In this document: positions 7,554 to 14,412 of the stretch, piece by piece
Position numbering within the stretch: the stretch's first letter is position 1
How the letters are laid out: the number at the start of each line of letters is the position of its first letter
Assembly: GCA_017610335.1 (NCBI GenBank)
Contig: JAFCCG010000011.1
Location: forward strand, 1-36,186
Length of the DNA: 36,186 nucleotides
Reading direction: 5' to 3'
Source of the DNA: Chloroflexota bacterium
GTDB taxonomy: Archaea; Iainarchaeota; Iainarchaeia; Iainarchaeales; GCA-2688035
Notes under the pieces: generated by a model
Database searches by the model: none
What the model was told of the DNA's origin: nothing
What the model saw: only the letters and a program-made list of their open reading frames with translations
Position numbers and translations under genes: made by a program

Positions 7554-7620
7554 TAAAAAAACCAAAAAAATAAGGCATTCCAAGCTTTTAATTCTTTTGT
7601 CAGACAACATTCTGCCGATA

Positions 7621-7660
7621 ATGATTTGACAATTAGCCTGATGTATTCAGGGTAATATAG
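7621..7660 (+). repeat. Left imperfect direct repeat flanking the ABC-F island
   Basis: ATGATTTGACAATTAG (7621-7636), followed about 13 nt later by GGGTAATATA (7650-7659), is matched by a second copy at 10114-10154 in the same orientation. The two copies enclose the ABC-F gene and two small genes. The left copy abuts the upstream end of the GH130-like reading frame. Confidence 0.6.
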
Positions 7661-7840
7661 ATTTTGATGGCTTTTCAGAAAAACCCTAAATTTGACCCCC
7701 AAGCGTGGTATTGGCTTTTGGGCTTGAAAAAATCACAAACGGCAAAAAATCCCGCCGAAAGAATAAAATAGGGGAATGAACATAAAGATAACACTAGTTT
7801 GCTTTTTTTTTGGCGAACATTGTTTTTTGGAGGCATTTTT

Positions 7841-10090: not shown

Positions 10091-10113
10091 TATATGCTGA
10101 CAAAAATATCTTG

Positions 10114-10154
10114 ATGATTTGACAATTAGTCTAATAGTGCCTGGGGGTAATATA
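10114..10154 (+). repeat. Right imperfect direct repeat flanking the ABC-F island
   Basis: ATGATTTGACAATTAG (10114-10129) and GGGTAATATA (10145-10154) match the copy at 7621-7659, with one extra base in the spacer. The repeat begins 24 bp after the ABC-F stop codon. Confidence 0.6.
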
Positions 10155-10186
10155 ACTTTTTTTCATTGCGATTTGAGTTAGTTCAT

Positions 10187-10598
10187 TCAAAGCATTCCAA
10201 ACTCTTTTATCATTTCTTTTGTGGTAAGCGTTTTTATCCTGTTTTGTGCTTTGAATCCCCTGTCTTCGCTCCAGATAATTGTGTCTTCTTTGAGAGCACA
10301 GGCAAGGTATAACCAGTCATCAGGGTCTTTAATTAAAGAAGCAACTGCTGGCAAAAAGGGTTTTAGCTCTGAGTCTTCAATCAGAAGAACCTGTGATGTT
10401 ATTTTGTTATACAGTTGTCGGAATTCTTCTTCACTGCCTGCAAATTTTCCTTTTAAGTAACCTGTATATTTTTTGAATTCTTTTAGAAGAAAGCGGGGTG
10501 CATAGAGTTCTATTTCTGGCCCGAACCACAGTTTCCTTGTTGTTCCACTTTTTAGAAATGCAGCAAAGAGGATGTTTGCATCAACTTGAGTAGTTCTT
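10187..10598 (-). pseudogene. PIN-domain protein lacking a start (5'-truncated remnant)
   Basis: An open frame of about 137 codons encodes a recognisable PIN domain. It reads VDANILFAAFLKSGTTRKLW, then ELYAPRFLLKEFKKY, DPDDWLYLACALKEDTIIWS, EDRGFKA and TTKEMIKEFGML before TGA at 10187. The Asp residues of VDAN, DPDD and the SED motif fit the metal-binding PIN nuclease site. No ATG, GTG or TTG lies in frame between the upstream stop (10599-10601) and VDAN; a functional gene would need Met plus one to four residues here. It is best read as a decayed VapC-like toxin, or a gene with a non-canonical start. No antitoxin gene sits beside it on this strand. Confidence 0.6.
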
Positions 10599-10793: not shown

Positions 10794-10809
10794 CTTCAGT
10801 CCGCCTCTG
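10794..10809 (-). repeat. Dispersed repeat copy S1 (inverted orientation)
   Basis: CAGAGGCGGACTGAAG on the minus strand shares the GGCGGACTGA core with the copies at 11503, 11608 (partial), 12638 and 14051. It lies just upstream of the RHH/RelE-like pair and in the opposite orientation to the others. Confidence 0.5.
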
Positions 10810-10833
10810 AATAAATTAAACCAACCATTATCC

Positions 10834-10867
10834 TTATATATCTTTTTGTTATATATTTGATAGGTGA
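10834..10867 (+). promoter_or_regulatory. Promoter/operator and RBS of the RHH/RelE-like pair
   Basis: TTATATAT occurs at 10834-10841 and again at 10849-10856, 15 bp apart, forming TATA-like elements that may also be RHH operator half-sites. AGGTGA at 10862-10867 precedes a TTG start by five nt. Confidence 0.45.
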
Positions 10868-10872
10868 TTTAT

Positions 10873-11133
10873 TTGAGTGAAACTTTGGTTAGGCTGGAGG
10901 GAGCGCCAGAAATTGTTTTGGAAAAACTTACTGGGCTTGGTATATTTAAGACAAAGACAGAGGCAATTAGGGCTGCTATTCTTGATTTGGGAAAGGACTA
11001 CAAGGTCTTTAACAGTTTGCAGGAGCTTGAGGCTGAGCTTGTTGCAAGAAAGTTGCAGATAGAAGAAAAGGAAATGAGGAGAAAAGGCATTAAGTATATT
11101 TCTAAGGAAAAGGCTCTTGCCAAATACAGGTGA
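10873..11133 (+). CDS. Ribbon-helix-helix-type antitoxin (VapB/RelB-like)
   Basis: The 86-residue product has an N-terminal RHH-like segment, TLVRLEGAPEIVLEKLTGLG, then IFKTKTEAIRAAILDLGKDY (strand, helix, turn, helix). A charged C-terminal helix ends KGIKYISKEKALAKYR, as in antitoxins whose tail wraps the toxin. The start is taken as TTG at 10873, five nt after AGGTGA; GTG at 10864 would overlap the ribosome site. It is followed after five bp by a RelE-like toxin in the same orientation, the classic antitoxin-first operon order. Auto-repression through the TTATATAT repeats upstream is inferred. Confidence 0.75.
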   Translation: MSETLVRLEGAPEIVLEKLTGLGIFKTKTEAIRAAILDLGKDYKVFNSLQELEAELVARKLQIEEKEMRRKGIKYISKEKALAKYR

Positions 11134-11138
11134 CCTGA

Positions 11139-11417
11139 GTGAAGTTGTCGCCTTGGAAAGTCAAATTCATGCCTGGTTGGGACAAGTGCTTCAAAAAATT
11201 TGGTAAACCAACTCGAGAGAGGCTGTTGAAAAAGTTTGATCAAATGGAAAAGCCGCTGAGAGCAAGAGGTTTGCACTCTTCACGCTACCAGGTTGAAGAG
11301 GTTGGACAAAACAGAATTGGCTTTATTCAAGACCAGGCCACGAGAACAAAGCGCATCCATTTTGTTGGCAACCACAAGCAATATCGGAAATGGTACATTG
11401 TTCTGGAAAAATTGTAG
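11139..11417 (+). CDS. RelE/ParE-superfamily toxin
   Basis: The 92-residue protein follows the antitoxin by five bp. It starts with GTG at 11139 behind AGGTGA, again at five-nt spacing; this AGGTGA overlaps the antitoxin stop. WKVKFMPGWDKCFKKFGKPT, then RERLLKKFDQMEKPLRARGL, corresponds to the two N-terminal helices of RelE-like folds. YQVEEVGQNRIGFIQDQATR and TKRIHFVGNHKQYRKWY form the beta sheet with the terminal basic/aromatic residues expected of an mRNA-cleaving or ParE-type toxin. Whether it cleaves ribosome-bound mRNA (RelE) or targets gyrase (ParE) cannot be decided. Length and context are typical of the superfamily. Confidence 0.75.
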   Translation: MKLSPWKVKFMPGWDKCFKKFGKPTRERLLKKFDQMEKPLRARGLHSSRYQVEEVGQNRIGFIQDQATRTKRIHFVGNHKQYRKWYIVLEKL

Positions 11418-11502
11418 CAATGCCTATTATTTAAACCATTTTGGATGACCCTTAATACTTGCCAATGATGATCTGACGATGACACAGAGCGCAAGCAATG
11501 AC

Positions 11503-11522
11503 GAGAGATGGGCGGACTGAGG
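11503..11522 (+). repeat. Dispersed repeat copy S2
   Basis: GAGAGATGGGCGGACTGAGG here is identical over all 20 bases to the copy at 12638-12657. It lies in the 201-bp gap after the RelE-like gene. Confidence 0.75.
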
Positions 11523-11549
11523 TGTTGAATTTTTAATTTATGCGAAGCC

Positions 11550-11606
11550 ATGCCATTGAGCCCAAGCGAAATGGCATTCTTGCTCGCACCAGCCGGGCGT
11601 GACGGC
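11550..11606 (+). other. Intergenic hairpins between the RelE-like and MNT modules
   Basis: ATGCCATT (11550-11557) pairs perfectly with AATGGCAT (11570-11577) across a 12-nt loop, and AGCCG/CGGCT (about 11590-11606) forms a second short stem. The stems lie between two copies of the dispersed repeat. They may be part of a repeat element or of a small RNA; neither is proven. Confidence 0.35.
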
Positions 11607-11607
11607 T

Positions 11608-11619
11608 GATGGGCGGACT
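11608..11619 (+). repeat. Dispersed repeat partial copy S2b, abutting the MNT gene start
   Basis: GATGGGCGGACT matches the centre of the 20-mer repeat and ends within the TTG start codon of the nucleotidyltransferase gene. The GAGG end of the repeat is replaced by coding sequence. Confidence 0.5.
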
Positions 11620-12176
11620 TGGTTGATATTGATTTTCTTAATGAAGGCGCATTTCGACTATTGGAGTTTCTTTTGGATAAGAAATACTATTTGCGAGAGC
11701 TTGCTGAAAAAACAGGTCTTGCTCCAAGTAGCGTTCACAAAATAATGGCAAAACTTGAGCTAAAAAAAATTGTTGTGGTAACAAAACAAAAGAACCGAAA
11801 AATTTTCAGTCTGAATTATAATAGCCCTCTAGCAACAAGTATACTGAGAACTATTTTTGTGCACGAAATCACAATGGCTAGGGCATTTAAAAACCTGGTC
11901 AAATTACAGCCTTTAGGCGTTTACTTGTTTGGCAGTGCTGCTACTGGAAAAATGACTGGTGACAGCGATGTTGATTTGGCAATTTATTTTAAAAAAAAGC
12001 CAGATTCGCTTTTAATAAGCCGGATTAAAAGAGAGTTGAGTAACCAGCTAAAAAGAGATGTACAGTTAATTACGTTGACCAAAAGCAAAGTTGATTCGAT
12101 GGAAAAGGAGAAAACAGAGTTGTTGCAGCAAATAAGACTCAAATCAATTGTCTTAGAAGGTGAAGAACTTGATTGA
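11619..12176 (+). CDS. Winged-helix plus MNT-type nucleotidyltransferase (antitoxin of MNT-HEPN pair)
   Basis: The 185-residue protein has an N-terminal winged helix (FRLLEFLLDKKYYLRELAEK, then TGLAPSSVHKIMAKLELKKI, residues 12-51). A minimal nucleotidyltransferase follows: LFGSAATGKMTGDSDVDLAI (103-122), with GS at 105-106 and the metal-binding aspartates D117 and D119. MNT proteins of this kind pair with HEPN ribonucleases, neutralising them in known systems by adding AMP residues. The fused DNA-binding domain suggests it also represses its own operon. The only plausible start is TTG at 11619, inside a repeat copy and without a clear ribosome site, which is unusual. The next gene overlaps its end by eight bp. 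The pairing call is firm; the biochemical mode is by analogy. Confidence 0.8.
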   Translation: MVDIDFLNEGAFRLLEFLLDKKYYLRELAEKTGLAPSSVHKIMAKLELKKIVVVTKQKNRKIFSLNYNSPLATSILRTIFVHEITMARAFKNLVKLQPLGVYLFGSAATGKMTGDSDVDLAIYFKKKPDSLLISRIKRELSNQLKRDVQLITLTKSKVDSMEKEKTELLQQIRLKSIVLEGEELD

Positions 12177-12609
12177 GGTTGACGATTGCTTTGAGAAAGG
12201 TTTACTTAAGAAAACTACTAAAAGTAAGAGGCTTGCATTGCAAGATCTTGCACAAGCTGAATTTTTTCTGAATGAAAGCTTTGATTTAATAAACATCAAA
12301 AAGGACGAGATGGCTGCAATAGCGATGTACAATGCGGCTTTTCATGCAGCAAGAGCACTACTTTATTTGCATGGGGTAAAGGAAAAAAGCCACTATTGCC
12401 TACAGAAATACTTGGAAGAAAAATTCAGCAAAAAGGGAATGTTCAGCTCAGAGGACTTATCCTTATTTGATTTGTTGAGGGGGCTAAGACAGGAAGTTCA
12501 ATATAATGTCACGAGAGTGAAGTTTGAGGAAAACCTAAGCGAATTATATAACAAAGCAGAAAAATTCATTGAAAAAGCAAAAGACATCGTTAAATCCGAG
12601 AACTCTTAA
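12169..12609 (+). CDS. HEPN-domain protein (toxin partner of the MNT gene)
   Basis: The 146-residue, mostly helical protein matches the COG1895/PF05168 HEPN group. ALQDLAQAEFFLNESFDLIN (helix 1) is followed by MAAIAMYNAAFHAARALLYL, HGVKEKSHYCLQKYL and DLLRGLRQEVQYN. The catalytic Rx4-6H of HEPN ribonucleases would fall in this last segment, but no histidine follows the arginines (RGLRQEVQYN), so nuclease activity is doubtful. TTG at 12169 is preferred as start because AGGTGA ends five nt before it; GTG at 12160 overlaps that site. The frame overlaps the MNT stop, implying translational coupling. Confidence 0.75.
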   Translation: MIEVDDCFEKGLLKKTTKSKRLALQDLAQAEFFLNESFDLINIKKDEMAAIAMYNAAFHAARALLYLHGVKEKSHYCLQKYLEEKFSKKGMFSSEDLSLFDLLRGLRQEVQYNVTRVKFEENLSELYNKAEKFIEKAKDIVKSENS

Positions 12610-12637
12610 AAAATGGAATTAAACCTTCGTCTTTCGA

Positions 12638-12657
12638 GAGAGATGGGCGGACTGAGG
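12638..12657 (+). repeat. Dispersed repeat copy S3
   Basis: GAGAGATGGGCGGACTGAGG, identical to the copy at 11503-11522, starts 28 bp after the HEPN stop codon. An imperfect complement of its end, CCTTCGTC, lies just upstream, as in copy S4. Confidence 0.75.
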
Positions 12658-12680
12658 CTATAAAGGACTTAAGATTAATA

Positions 12681-12721
12681 AAATATTAATATTTAGTCAT
12701 TTATAGATAGATTTTTAAACC
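12681..12721 (+). promoter_or_regulatory. Palindrome and TATA box upstream of the Fic gene
   Basis: AAATATTAATATTT (12681-12694) is a perfect 14-bp palindrome. TTTTTAAACC (12712-12721) is TATA-like and lies 21-30 nt before the ATG at 12742, which has no ribosome site. A leaderless, possibly auto-regulated transcript is inferred. Confidence 0.4.
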
Positions 12722-12741
12722 TTTTTAGGCCTAATTGGAAT

Positions 12742-13968
12742 ATGGTTTCAAGATTGGATGTTTTTTTGACTGTTGGTCTTTATCCTGAGCTTTCCTGTGC
12801 GAACATTGTCAAAAAAATAGGCAAGGCACAGACATCTTACAATGCAACATACAATCTTCTCCAAGAACTAAAAGCCGATGGATTAGTTGTGGAGAAGAAA
12901 GAATCCTTTAGTGCTTCAAAAACAAAAAAGGCGCACATGCTTCTTAGCTTGGTTTATTTTTGCTTCAAAAACGGGATTGATTACAACAAAGTTATTTCAG
13001 AAAAAAGTGCCGAGTTTGTCAAAATGGGTTTGGAAAAGGGTCAAATAAATGGTTTGCCTTTTGATGCAAAAACAGTCAGGAGAATTGTTGGCCAGCTTTC
13101 GAAAAACGGTTTTGCTGTTGTTGAGTCAAGAAAGCCTTTTTTGTGCAAAATTGTGCCATCGCAGTTTACTCAATTGCTTGTGGAATACTTTTTTGGGAAA
13201 ACTAAGGTTAAATGCTCTTTGCTGTTGGATTGTCTGGATGAACGGTTTGTTAATTCCAAGCTTGAAAAACAGTTTTCCTTATACAAGAGCCTTGAAAAAG
13301 AAAAATTCGCCTTTGATGAAATAGGGTTCATTTACATAAGTCTTTCTCTTGAAGGGAACACCCTTACATTATCAGAAACTGAAAAGATAATCAAGCAAAA
13401 CATTGCTCCTGCTTCAAAACCATTCAAAGACGCGCAACAGGTGCTTGATTATAAAAAAGGTCTTGACGGGTTTATTTTTTCCAGCATTGCAATCACACAA
13501 GAATCGATTCTTGAATTTCACAGAACATCAATGAATTCTTTGGCTACAGGCGCAGGCCGATTTAGAACAGAAAATGTCCGGATAAAAGGCAATTCTAACT
13601 TTAAAACTCCTGACTGGAAAGAGCTTCCTGACCTATTAAAAGGTTTTTTCAAAAACGCAAACATCTGGGAAAAGAAAAAAGTTTCTGCTGCCGAAATAGT
13701 TGAAAAAGCTGCCTTTTTGCACAACGAATTCCAGCGCATCCACCCGTTCATTGATGGAAACAGCAGGACATCAAGGGCAATATTCCTAAAGGCACTAATC
13801 CAAAACAATTTTCCTCTAATAAAAATACCAGTGGGGTTTTCCGACCAATACATGAAACTCACAAAACTAAGCGAAAAAAGAGACGACAAAAAGTTCGCCT
13901 TCCTGATGAAACAGATAGCCCTAGAAAACCTAAAACACATAATAAAAAAACTTGAATACGAATTCTGA
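12742..13968 (+). CDS. Fic-domain protein with N-terminal winged helix (AMPylator-like)
   Basis: The 408-residue protein has winged-helix-like segments at about 1-60 and 85-140, then a Fic domain. The autoinhibitory motif SLSLEG (S200, E204, G205) fits the [S/T]xxxE[G/N] signature placed N-terminal to the Fic core (class II). The active-site loop is HPFIDGNSRTSR (334-345), matching HPFxDGN-G-R with Ser in place of the usual Gly. The flap region around RFRTENVRIKG (273-283) is present. Fic enzymes usually transfer AMP to Ser/Thr/Tyr of target proteins. It is a stand-alone gene flanked by repeat copies S3 and S4. Catalytic His334, Asp338 and Arg345 are intact, so activity is likely, held back by the inhibitory glutamate. 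The target is unknown. Confidence 0.88.
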   Translation: MVSRLDVFLTVGLYPELSCANIVKKIGKAQTSYNATYNLLQELKADGLVVEKKESFSASKTKKAHMLLSLVYFCFKNGIDYNKVISEKSAEFVKMGLEKGQINGLPFDAKTVRRIVGQLSKNGFAVVESRKPFLCKIVPSQFTQLLVEYFFGKTKVKCSLLLDCLDERFVNSKLEKQFSLYKSLEKEKFAFDEIGFIYISLSLEGNTLTLSETEKIIKQNIAPASKPFKDAQQVLDYKKGLDGFIFSSIAITQESILEFHRTSMNSLATGAGRFRTENVRIKGNSNFKTPDWKELPDLLKGFFKNANIWEKKKVSAAEIVEKAAFLHNEFQRIHPFIDGNSRTSRAIFLKALIQNNFPLIKIPVGFSDQYMKLTKLSEKRDDKKFAFLMKQIALENLKHIIKKLEYEF

Positions 13969-14030
13969 ACCTGGTTGCAGATGCGAATACCTCAAATTGC
14001 AGATTCAATCCACTTAAATGCGTGGTAACC

Positions 14031-14071
14031 AACGCCTCATCTTTCGGATAGGATAGGCGGACTGAGGCGTT
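14031..14071 (+). repeat. Dispersed repeat copy S4 with perfect 9-bp terminal inverted repeats
   Basis: AACGCCTCA (14031-14039) pairs with TGAGGCGTT (14063-14071) around a 23-nt loop. The right part, GGATAGGCGGACTGAGG (14051-14067), matches the 20-mer repeat of copies S2 and S3. It sits 62 bp after the Fic stop codon. Confidence 0.7.
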
Positions 14072-14106: not shown

Positions 14107-14412
14107 ATGAAAAAATTGAATCGTCTGAATATTGCCTTTATTGCAATTTCTTTTCTTGTTATGTTACCTGGAATAAACTTTGTCTACAAGATTATTTCAA
14201 CATGGTCTGTTTGGGGAATTCCTGAAAAATGGGCACTGAACATTTTTATTCTTTCATTTCCGCTGTTGCTTTTTTTTCTGGTGCTGCTGTTTAATCTTGT
14301 CAAAAAGTTTTCGAAAAACAGGAAATCAACAATTTTTACTTCAACTGCATTAATTCTTGCACAGATGTTTTTTTACGCCTACTTTATTTTTGCAGGTTTT
14401 TCAATCTTTTAA
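14107..14412 (+). CDS. Small membrane protein, about three transmembrane segments
   Basis: The 101-residue protein has hydrophobic stretches at about 9-30 (IAFIAISFLVMLPGINFVYK), 42-65 (ALNIFILSFPLLLFFLVLLF) and 77-100 (TSTALILAQMFFYAYFIFAG), separated by a basic KKFSKNRKS loop. I recognise no family. It follows repeat copy S4 and precedes, in convergent orientation, a pilin-like gene. It could be a pseudo-pilin accessory or an unrelated inner-membrane protein; nothing visible decides. Confidence 0.6.
   Translation: MKKLNRLNIAFIAISFLVMLPGINFVYKIISTWSVWGIPEKWALNIFILSFPLLLFFLVLLFNLVKKFSKNRKSTIFTSTALILAQMFFYAYFIFAGFSIF

Follow-up and report, generated by a model that had tools for sequence, protein, structure and literature searches.

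Elements and islands that integrate at transfer RNA (tRNA) and transfer-messenger RNA (tmRNA) genes carry a short block of identity with the end of the gene. Exchange takes place at the 5' side of this block, the gene is rebuilt, and the displaced fragment marks the far end of the element (Islander, PMC4383910; PMC8371274). For archaeal tyrosine recombinases, a review reports that the point of exchange is displaced towards the 5' end of the att site and that the 3' ends of tRNA genes are preferred (PMC8371274). Integrons and integron arrays without an integrase (CALINs), including archaeal ones (PMC9668308), are made up of cassettes arranged in tandem, each with a site at its 3' end, and have a cargo rich in toxin-antitoxin genes. 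The Xer dif modules of Acinetobacter plasmids are small integrase-less units, often carrying toxin-antitoxin genes, for which a host recombinase acting in trans is the presumed mover (PMC6449649, PMC13141974). The locus described here lies in a window of 36,186 nucleotides (contig JAFCCG010000011.1 of assembly GCA_017610335.1, forward strand), labelled Chloroflexota bacterium and placed by GTDB in the archaeal order Iainarchaeales, in which toxin-type genes alternate with copies of a dispersed repeat. Judged from the sequence, the shared core of this repeat, GATGGGCGGACTGAGG, is the 3' end, comprising the second guide and the D box, of a conserved archaeal C/D-box small RNA (sRNA) gene at 11460-11523. 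The locus is probably a two-sided cassette platform built on this guide sRNA gene, whose integrase-less units are served by a recombinase in trans. Unlike at tRNA and tmRNA genes, the target is a C/D guide sRNA gene, the units are about 0.1-1.4 kb long, stand in tandem and lack an integrase, and the 5' end of the gene serves a mirror-image family. The likeness to Xer dif modules is one of module layout, whereas here the site is the sRNA end plus an arm, with one site per unit, in archaeal chromosomes. No precedent for C/D sRNA genes as attachment sites was found in the open-access literature searched.

A comparison of the repeat sites revealed long conserved sequence upstream of one core copy in six genomes. 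The RNA in these genomes has the order C box, guide, D' box, small hairpin, C' box, guide and D box, and is closed by a GCC/GGC stem. In the window the gene (11460..11523, plus strand), the native attachment gene, contains the closing-stem GCC (11461-11463), C box (11465-11471), guide 1 (11472-11484), D' box (11485-11488; CAGA, which is CTGA in relatives), hairpin GCGCAAGC (11489-11496), C' box (11498-11504), guide 2 (11505-11516) and D box (11517-11520). R1, a covariance model built from the six sequences, scores 94 bits in the window and matches 16 of the 18 genomes of the family (two weakly) and 54 of the 75 of the order, many of them with no cassettes nearby. Most of these genomes have one strong copy, and its neighbours (a kinase, a small DNA-binding-type protein, a histone-like protein, EndA and TrpRS) tend to recur across the order. 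The first-pass annotation had set a cassette site against a conserved small-RNA family, but both proved true, the core being the end of an sRNA that keeps its orthologous place.

Alignment and covariation show all four boxes of an archaeal C/D sRNA in order, together with the closing stem. Among 34 sequences, 98.7% of stem cells are paired, pairing falls to at most 57% when the stems are slid, and there are 41 double changes against 9.0 in shuffled alignments (0 of 500); the alignment was fitted to R1, so the counts lean towards the structure, but the compensation is still large. The complementarity next to the D' box is clear: guide 1 forms 10-11 Watson-Crick pairs with GGTCATCGTCAGC of 16S ribosomal RNA (rRNA) in all four genomes tested (P 0.000-0.016). 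By the D+5 rule, this predicts 2'-O-methylation at 16S A1061 (E. coli numbering), and guide 2 predicts, less strongly, methylation of C1402. Matches to 16S rRNA are consistent, whereas 23S rRNA gave no consistent match as a guide target. Nothing in the window reaches the Rfam gathering threshold, and the best-placed entries below it for the sRNA are the archaeal C/D families sR1 and sR2, which share its layout of boxes and guides. The sRNA of the window differs from those families in that it doubles as an attachment gene.

The repeat copies located by the first-pass annotation are real and far beyond chance. In a pattern search of the window, GAGAGATGGGCGGACTGAGG occurs exactly at 11503-11522 and 12638-12657 (chance expectation 0.00). 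The shorter GGCGGACTGAGG occurs at 11511, 12646 and 14056 and, inverted and with one mismatch, at 10794-10805, which makes four matches against 0.01 expected. The inverted copy (minus strand; GGCGGACTGAAG), which that annotation had placed before the array, has no arm and may be a relic or a chance match. In the genome of the window (1.29 Mb in 95 contigs, with a completeness of 87%), which was covered by pattern and model searches, there are 11 exact copies of GGCGGACTGAGG. All are within four clusters, on contigs C20, C32 (the window), C55 and C68, with a spacing of roughly 0.1-1.4 kb and a single orientation per cluster. A complete copy of this R family consists of an arm and a core, as in GTAATTAAACCTTGGTCTTTAGAGTAG followed by GATGGGCGGACTGAGGC. 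Within public species genomes, the 20-base R site was found in four contigs of three related metagenome-assembled genomes (MAGs), of which one is labelled Candidatus Diapherotrites and one Thaumarchaeota, the latter label presumably mistaken, and in no others. Neither the exact R nor the exact L site pattern was found in viral contigs. The last copy in the window, S4, has a perfect 9-bp inverted repeat (AACGCCTCA at 14031-14039 and TGAGGCGTT at 14063-14071), as had been claimed of it. The proposal of a foldable element was dropped as a general property of R sites, some of which fold well, because folding at the other sites is weak (mean z about -1, range -3.4 to 0.5).

The R array of the window begins inside the 3' end of the sRNA, with the core at 11507..11522. 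A unit with no open reading frame (ORF) follows (11523..11607; about 101 bp with its core), and a near-identical unit is present on C55 and related sequence at a locus after a HerA gene. The truncated core GATGGGCGGACT (11608..11619), the partial copy that had been noticed at the MNT start, begins the MNT/HEPN cassette. This cassette encodes an antitoxin-type wHTH-MNT nucleotidyltransferase (11619..12176; Polbeta, 1.7e-14; MntA_antitoxin, 55.1 bits, just below the 60-bit cut-off) and a toxin-type HEPN protein (12160..12609; PF05168, 5.1e-15), and is ended by the arm GGAATTAAACCTTCGTCTTTCGAGAGA (12615..12641) and a core (12642..12657). The next cassette encodes a wHTH-Fic protein with the motif HPFIDGNSR (12742..13968; PF02661, 3.6e-17) and ends with the arm GTAACCAACGCCTCATCTTTCGGATAG (14025..14051) and the core GATAGGCGGACTGAGG (14052..14067). 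Both arms were aligned with other R arms, and all these features are on the plus strand. The flank to the right of this last core, which a native gene (14107-14412) adjoins, is 78% identical to contig C10 of the relative G003. It had been claimed that each of three toxin modules is followed by a copy of the repeat. This holds for MNT/HEPN and Fic, but the copy after the RHH/RelE pair (11503-11522) is the end of the sRNA itself. Pfam likewise bears out the MNT, HEPN and Fic families and not the assigned pair, of which the RHH-like protein has no Pfam or NCBIfam match and the RelE-like protein no Pfam, NCBIfam or convincing PDB match. Elsewhere the modules between R sites include DUF4258 with a MazE-type gene, GNAT with HicBA, and others. 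Only accessory genes lie inside the cassettes, and the cargo is mostly of toxin-antitoxin or defence type. The cassette counts are lower bounds, because 1.5-10 kb around the sites was read.

Whole units differ in position between sites and between genomes. Five cassette pairs are 82-92% identical from repeat to repeat, while their 200-bp flanks are no more alike than shuffled sequence. The DUF4258/MazE cassettes of C20 and C68 are 89.3% identical, and the GNAT-HicBA cassettes of C55 and C68 are 82.0% identical, with a copy in G007 at 83.6%. The Fic cassette of the window is 90.6% identical to one at the HerA locus of G003, and the MNT/HEPN cassette is 92.3% identical to one on C10 of G003. Thus, the suggestion that modules unrelated in family are bounded by the repeat and mobile as units is upheld, and so is the expectation that relatives differ by whole units. 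At the sRNA locus, the window reads sRNA, 101-bp unit, MNT/HEPN, Fic and then the same native gene as in G003, which reads sRNA, HicBA unit, MNT/HEPN and native gene; relatives from other genera have no R cassettes there. G007, G004 and G005 have an empty HerA locus, and the units that fill it in G003 differ from those in G000, the genome of the window. Further arrays occur at the end of a dolichol-kinase-like gene and beside RuBisCO. In G013 the sRNA ends with GATGGGCGAACCGAGG, and two cassette sites have the same variant, one of them with a further change. The Fic protein is 87.6% identical in G022, a member of another family of the order whose array has R-like sites of its own, whereas the housekeeping kinase of a congener of G022 is 56% identical to that of the window. 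This points to recent lateral movement of the Fic module.

Upstream of the sRNA lies an array of a mirror-image family, L, which the first-pass annotation had missed. The L repeat has the order promoter-like sequence of the TTTAAACC type, TTGCC, the 5' half of the sRNA (GATGATGATCTGAC), a palindromic arm and a run of T. Two L sites with this 5'-half core, arm and T run are present on the plus strand of the window, at 7612..7665 (copy 7617) and 10106..10160 (copy 10112). Between the second of these and the sRNA are the RHH-like gene (10864-11133; the family is that of the first-pass annotation) and the RelE-like gene (11139-11417; 33% identical to a ParE-like cassette protein), both on the plus strand. 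They therefore belong to the L array and are outside the R cassettes. L clusters occur also on C41, C76 and C95 (L108, L109 and L111 are among the L loci), and the modules bounded by L sites include PIN, RHH-ParE and nucleotidyltransferase genes. At the RuBisCO-adjacent locus the L modules differ between G000 and G003, and in G013 the L core follows the 5' half of that genome's own sRNA. The tally for the L family is four; a fifth case (G019, a three-letter pattern) was an artefact and was excluded. The putative promoter region of the sRNA in the window (TTTAAACC..., 11428..11459, plus strand) is of the type carried by L cassettes. L cassettes would supply a replacement promoter, because the stretch ahead of the sRNA has the cassette type of sequence where L cassettes lie upstream and a different one in G006, which has none there. 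A PIN-domain gene in the window (10190-10585, minus strand), apparently broken by a frameshift, shares 90% identity with a gene of an L cassette on C41. L sites are also found reversed about 60-80 bp before R sites (G000:C68:917/984, C76:4271/4349 and G006:C6), as though cassettes of both types could be linked back to back.

The junctions bear on the point of exchange. The secondary site at HerA has a left junction that passes from native sequence to GATGGGCGG... and a right junction that passes from the cassette arm to native sequence with no core. On C55 the left junction begins inside the core, at GGCGG. These junctions place the exchange point on or close to the 5' edge of the core, and the block of identity extends from there as far as the 3' end of the RNA gene. 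On C55 (L175, L032) the R array replaces the 3' end of a dolichol-kinase-like gene, and the repeat core supplies the last codons.

In the proposed mechanism, small integrase-less units would integrate at the sRNA ends by conservative site-specific recombination. R cassettes carry their own copy of the sRNA 3' end. An R cassette would insert at the 5' edge of the 3'-end block and rebuild the sRNA with its own GATGGGCGGACTGAGG, and each insertion would restore the gene because the downstream modules end in an arm and a core. The displaced old 3' end would become the next site, so that units stack in tandem downstream. The sites are directional, R cores being present downstream of the sRNA within 1.5 kb in 7 of 32 loci, against one with a control match. 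L cassettes would mirror this upstream, bringing a promoter and the sRNA 5' half. Exchange would be carried out by a tyrosine recombinase in trans through circular intermediates, leaving the guide RNA preserved, presumably under selection to keep the rRNA methylation. G000 encodes five tyrosine recombinases (on C11, C18, C88, C84 and C61), none near a site, and one IS200-type transposase, also on C61. One recombinase gene, of XerA type (L081:862-3003, minus strand, contig C11), is interrupted by an intein, matched by N- and C-terminal intein models, that splits the active-site motif (TPHTLRH, then C...HN, then SYATHLLEAG).

Three other explanations were weighed against this platform. Tandem units on one strand with a site at each 3' end, toxin-antitoxin cargo and ORF-less units would all be expected of a conventional CALIN, whose archaeal examples are known (PMC9668308), if the R sites were attC sites that fold as single strands and are moved by an integron integrase. 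The classical integron was the first idea, and was dropped because the attC boxes (RYYYAAC/GTTRRRY, judged by eye) are absent and no clear conserved fold emerged. By eye, no conserved GTTRRRY-like motif follows the listed sites, the letters after GAGGC being unconserved, and the weak folding also argues against attC sites. None of the five recombinases of the 87% complete genome reaches the cut-off for integron integrases, TIGR02249, the best being XerA at 190 against 265. Together with the RNA-gene platform, these differences make a CALIN quite unlikely. The same cassettes and sRNA target could instead be served by a single-strand transposase of the Y1/IS200 type, or by a domesticated enzyme related to it, that works on hairpins in trans. 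The transposase gene on C61, the palindromic L arms and those R sites that fold well fit such a mover, but the R arms have neither a palindrome nor a conserved hairpin, each cassette has a single site type, and the restoration of 16 bp at the end of an RNA gene is what integrases typically do (PMC8371274). A mover of this kind is unlikely, and a tyrosine recombinase in trans is the most likely one.

It is also conceivable that no mobile system exists, and that sRNA copies or terminators were spread by segmental duplication and homologous recombination among toxin-antitoxin genes. In favour of this, the core does belong to a conserved sRNA that keeps its orthologous position, and some genomes have tandem, near-complete sRNA copies. 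The identity of the five cassette pairs, however, ends at the 16-bp core on both sides, and this core is too short for ordinary homologous recombination to be a likely route. The directionality of the sites and the different units at the HerA locus in two genomes also speak against duplication, which is therefore very improbable. Several observations weigh against the two-sided platform itself. No recombinase was found in the cassettes or beside the inspected sites, in agreement with the first-pass annotation, which had seen no integrase or transposase, and none is tied to the cassettes. Guide 2 forms 8-9 pairs with 16S ACCGCCCATCAA (P 0.02-0.14), which is weak on its own. The native gene end at C55 was lost, which means that not every junction is a clean insertion. 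The cassette core of G044 is unlike the sRNA of its host, and nearly all the genomes used are draft MAGs.

If the two-sided platform is correct, a C/D guide RNA gene joins the list of integration targets, as a new form of RNA-gene-targeted integration, and an uncultured archaeal lineage gains a concrete route to acquire and shuffle toxin-antitoxin genes unit by unit. The hosts are a group of tiny, uncultured archaea in which toxin and defence genes would slot serially into both ends of a guide-RNA gene. The mobile sites and the rRNA-modification guide would share selection, since each insertion reconstitutes a part of the guide. With a conserved target and short sites, such cassettes would be findable in DPANN genomes by sequence alone, and it can then be asked which recombinase serves them. 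The chances are about even that this is a separate integron-like gene-capture platform in DPANN archaea, with two mirror-image integrase-less cassette families attached at the two ends of the guide gene, a guide RNA kept intact and on one side given a new promoter, and toxin and defence genes that a recombinase in trans circulates across taxonomic families.

Two minor observations concern the RNA genes. In G041 (L230), G035 (L232) and G016 (L233), two or three near-complete sRNA copies are 1-4 kb apart with accessory genes between them, as though in these genomes the sRNA were carried along whole by the cassettes. The 23S rRNA of G000 is matched in pieces (C34:23037-25749), with about 200 model positions unmatched between 25362 and 25490, which could reflect divergence, an assembly fault or a split gene.

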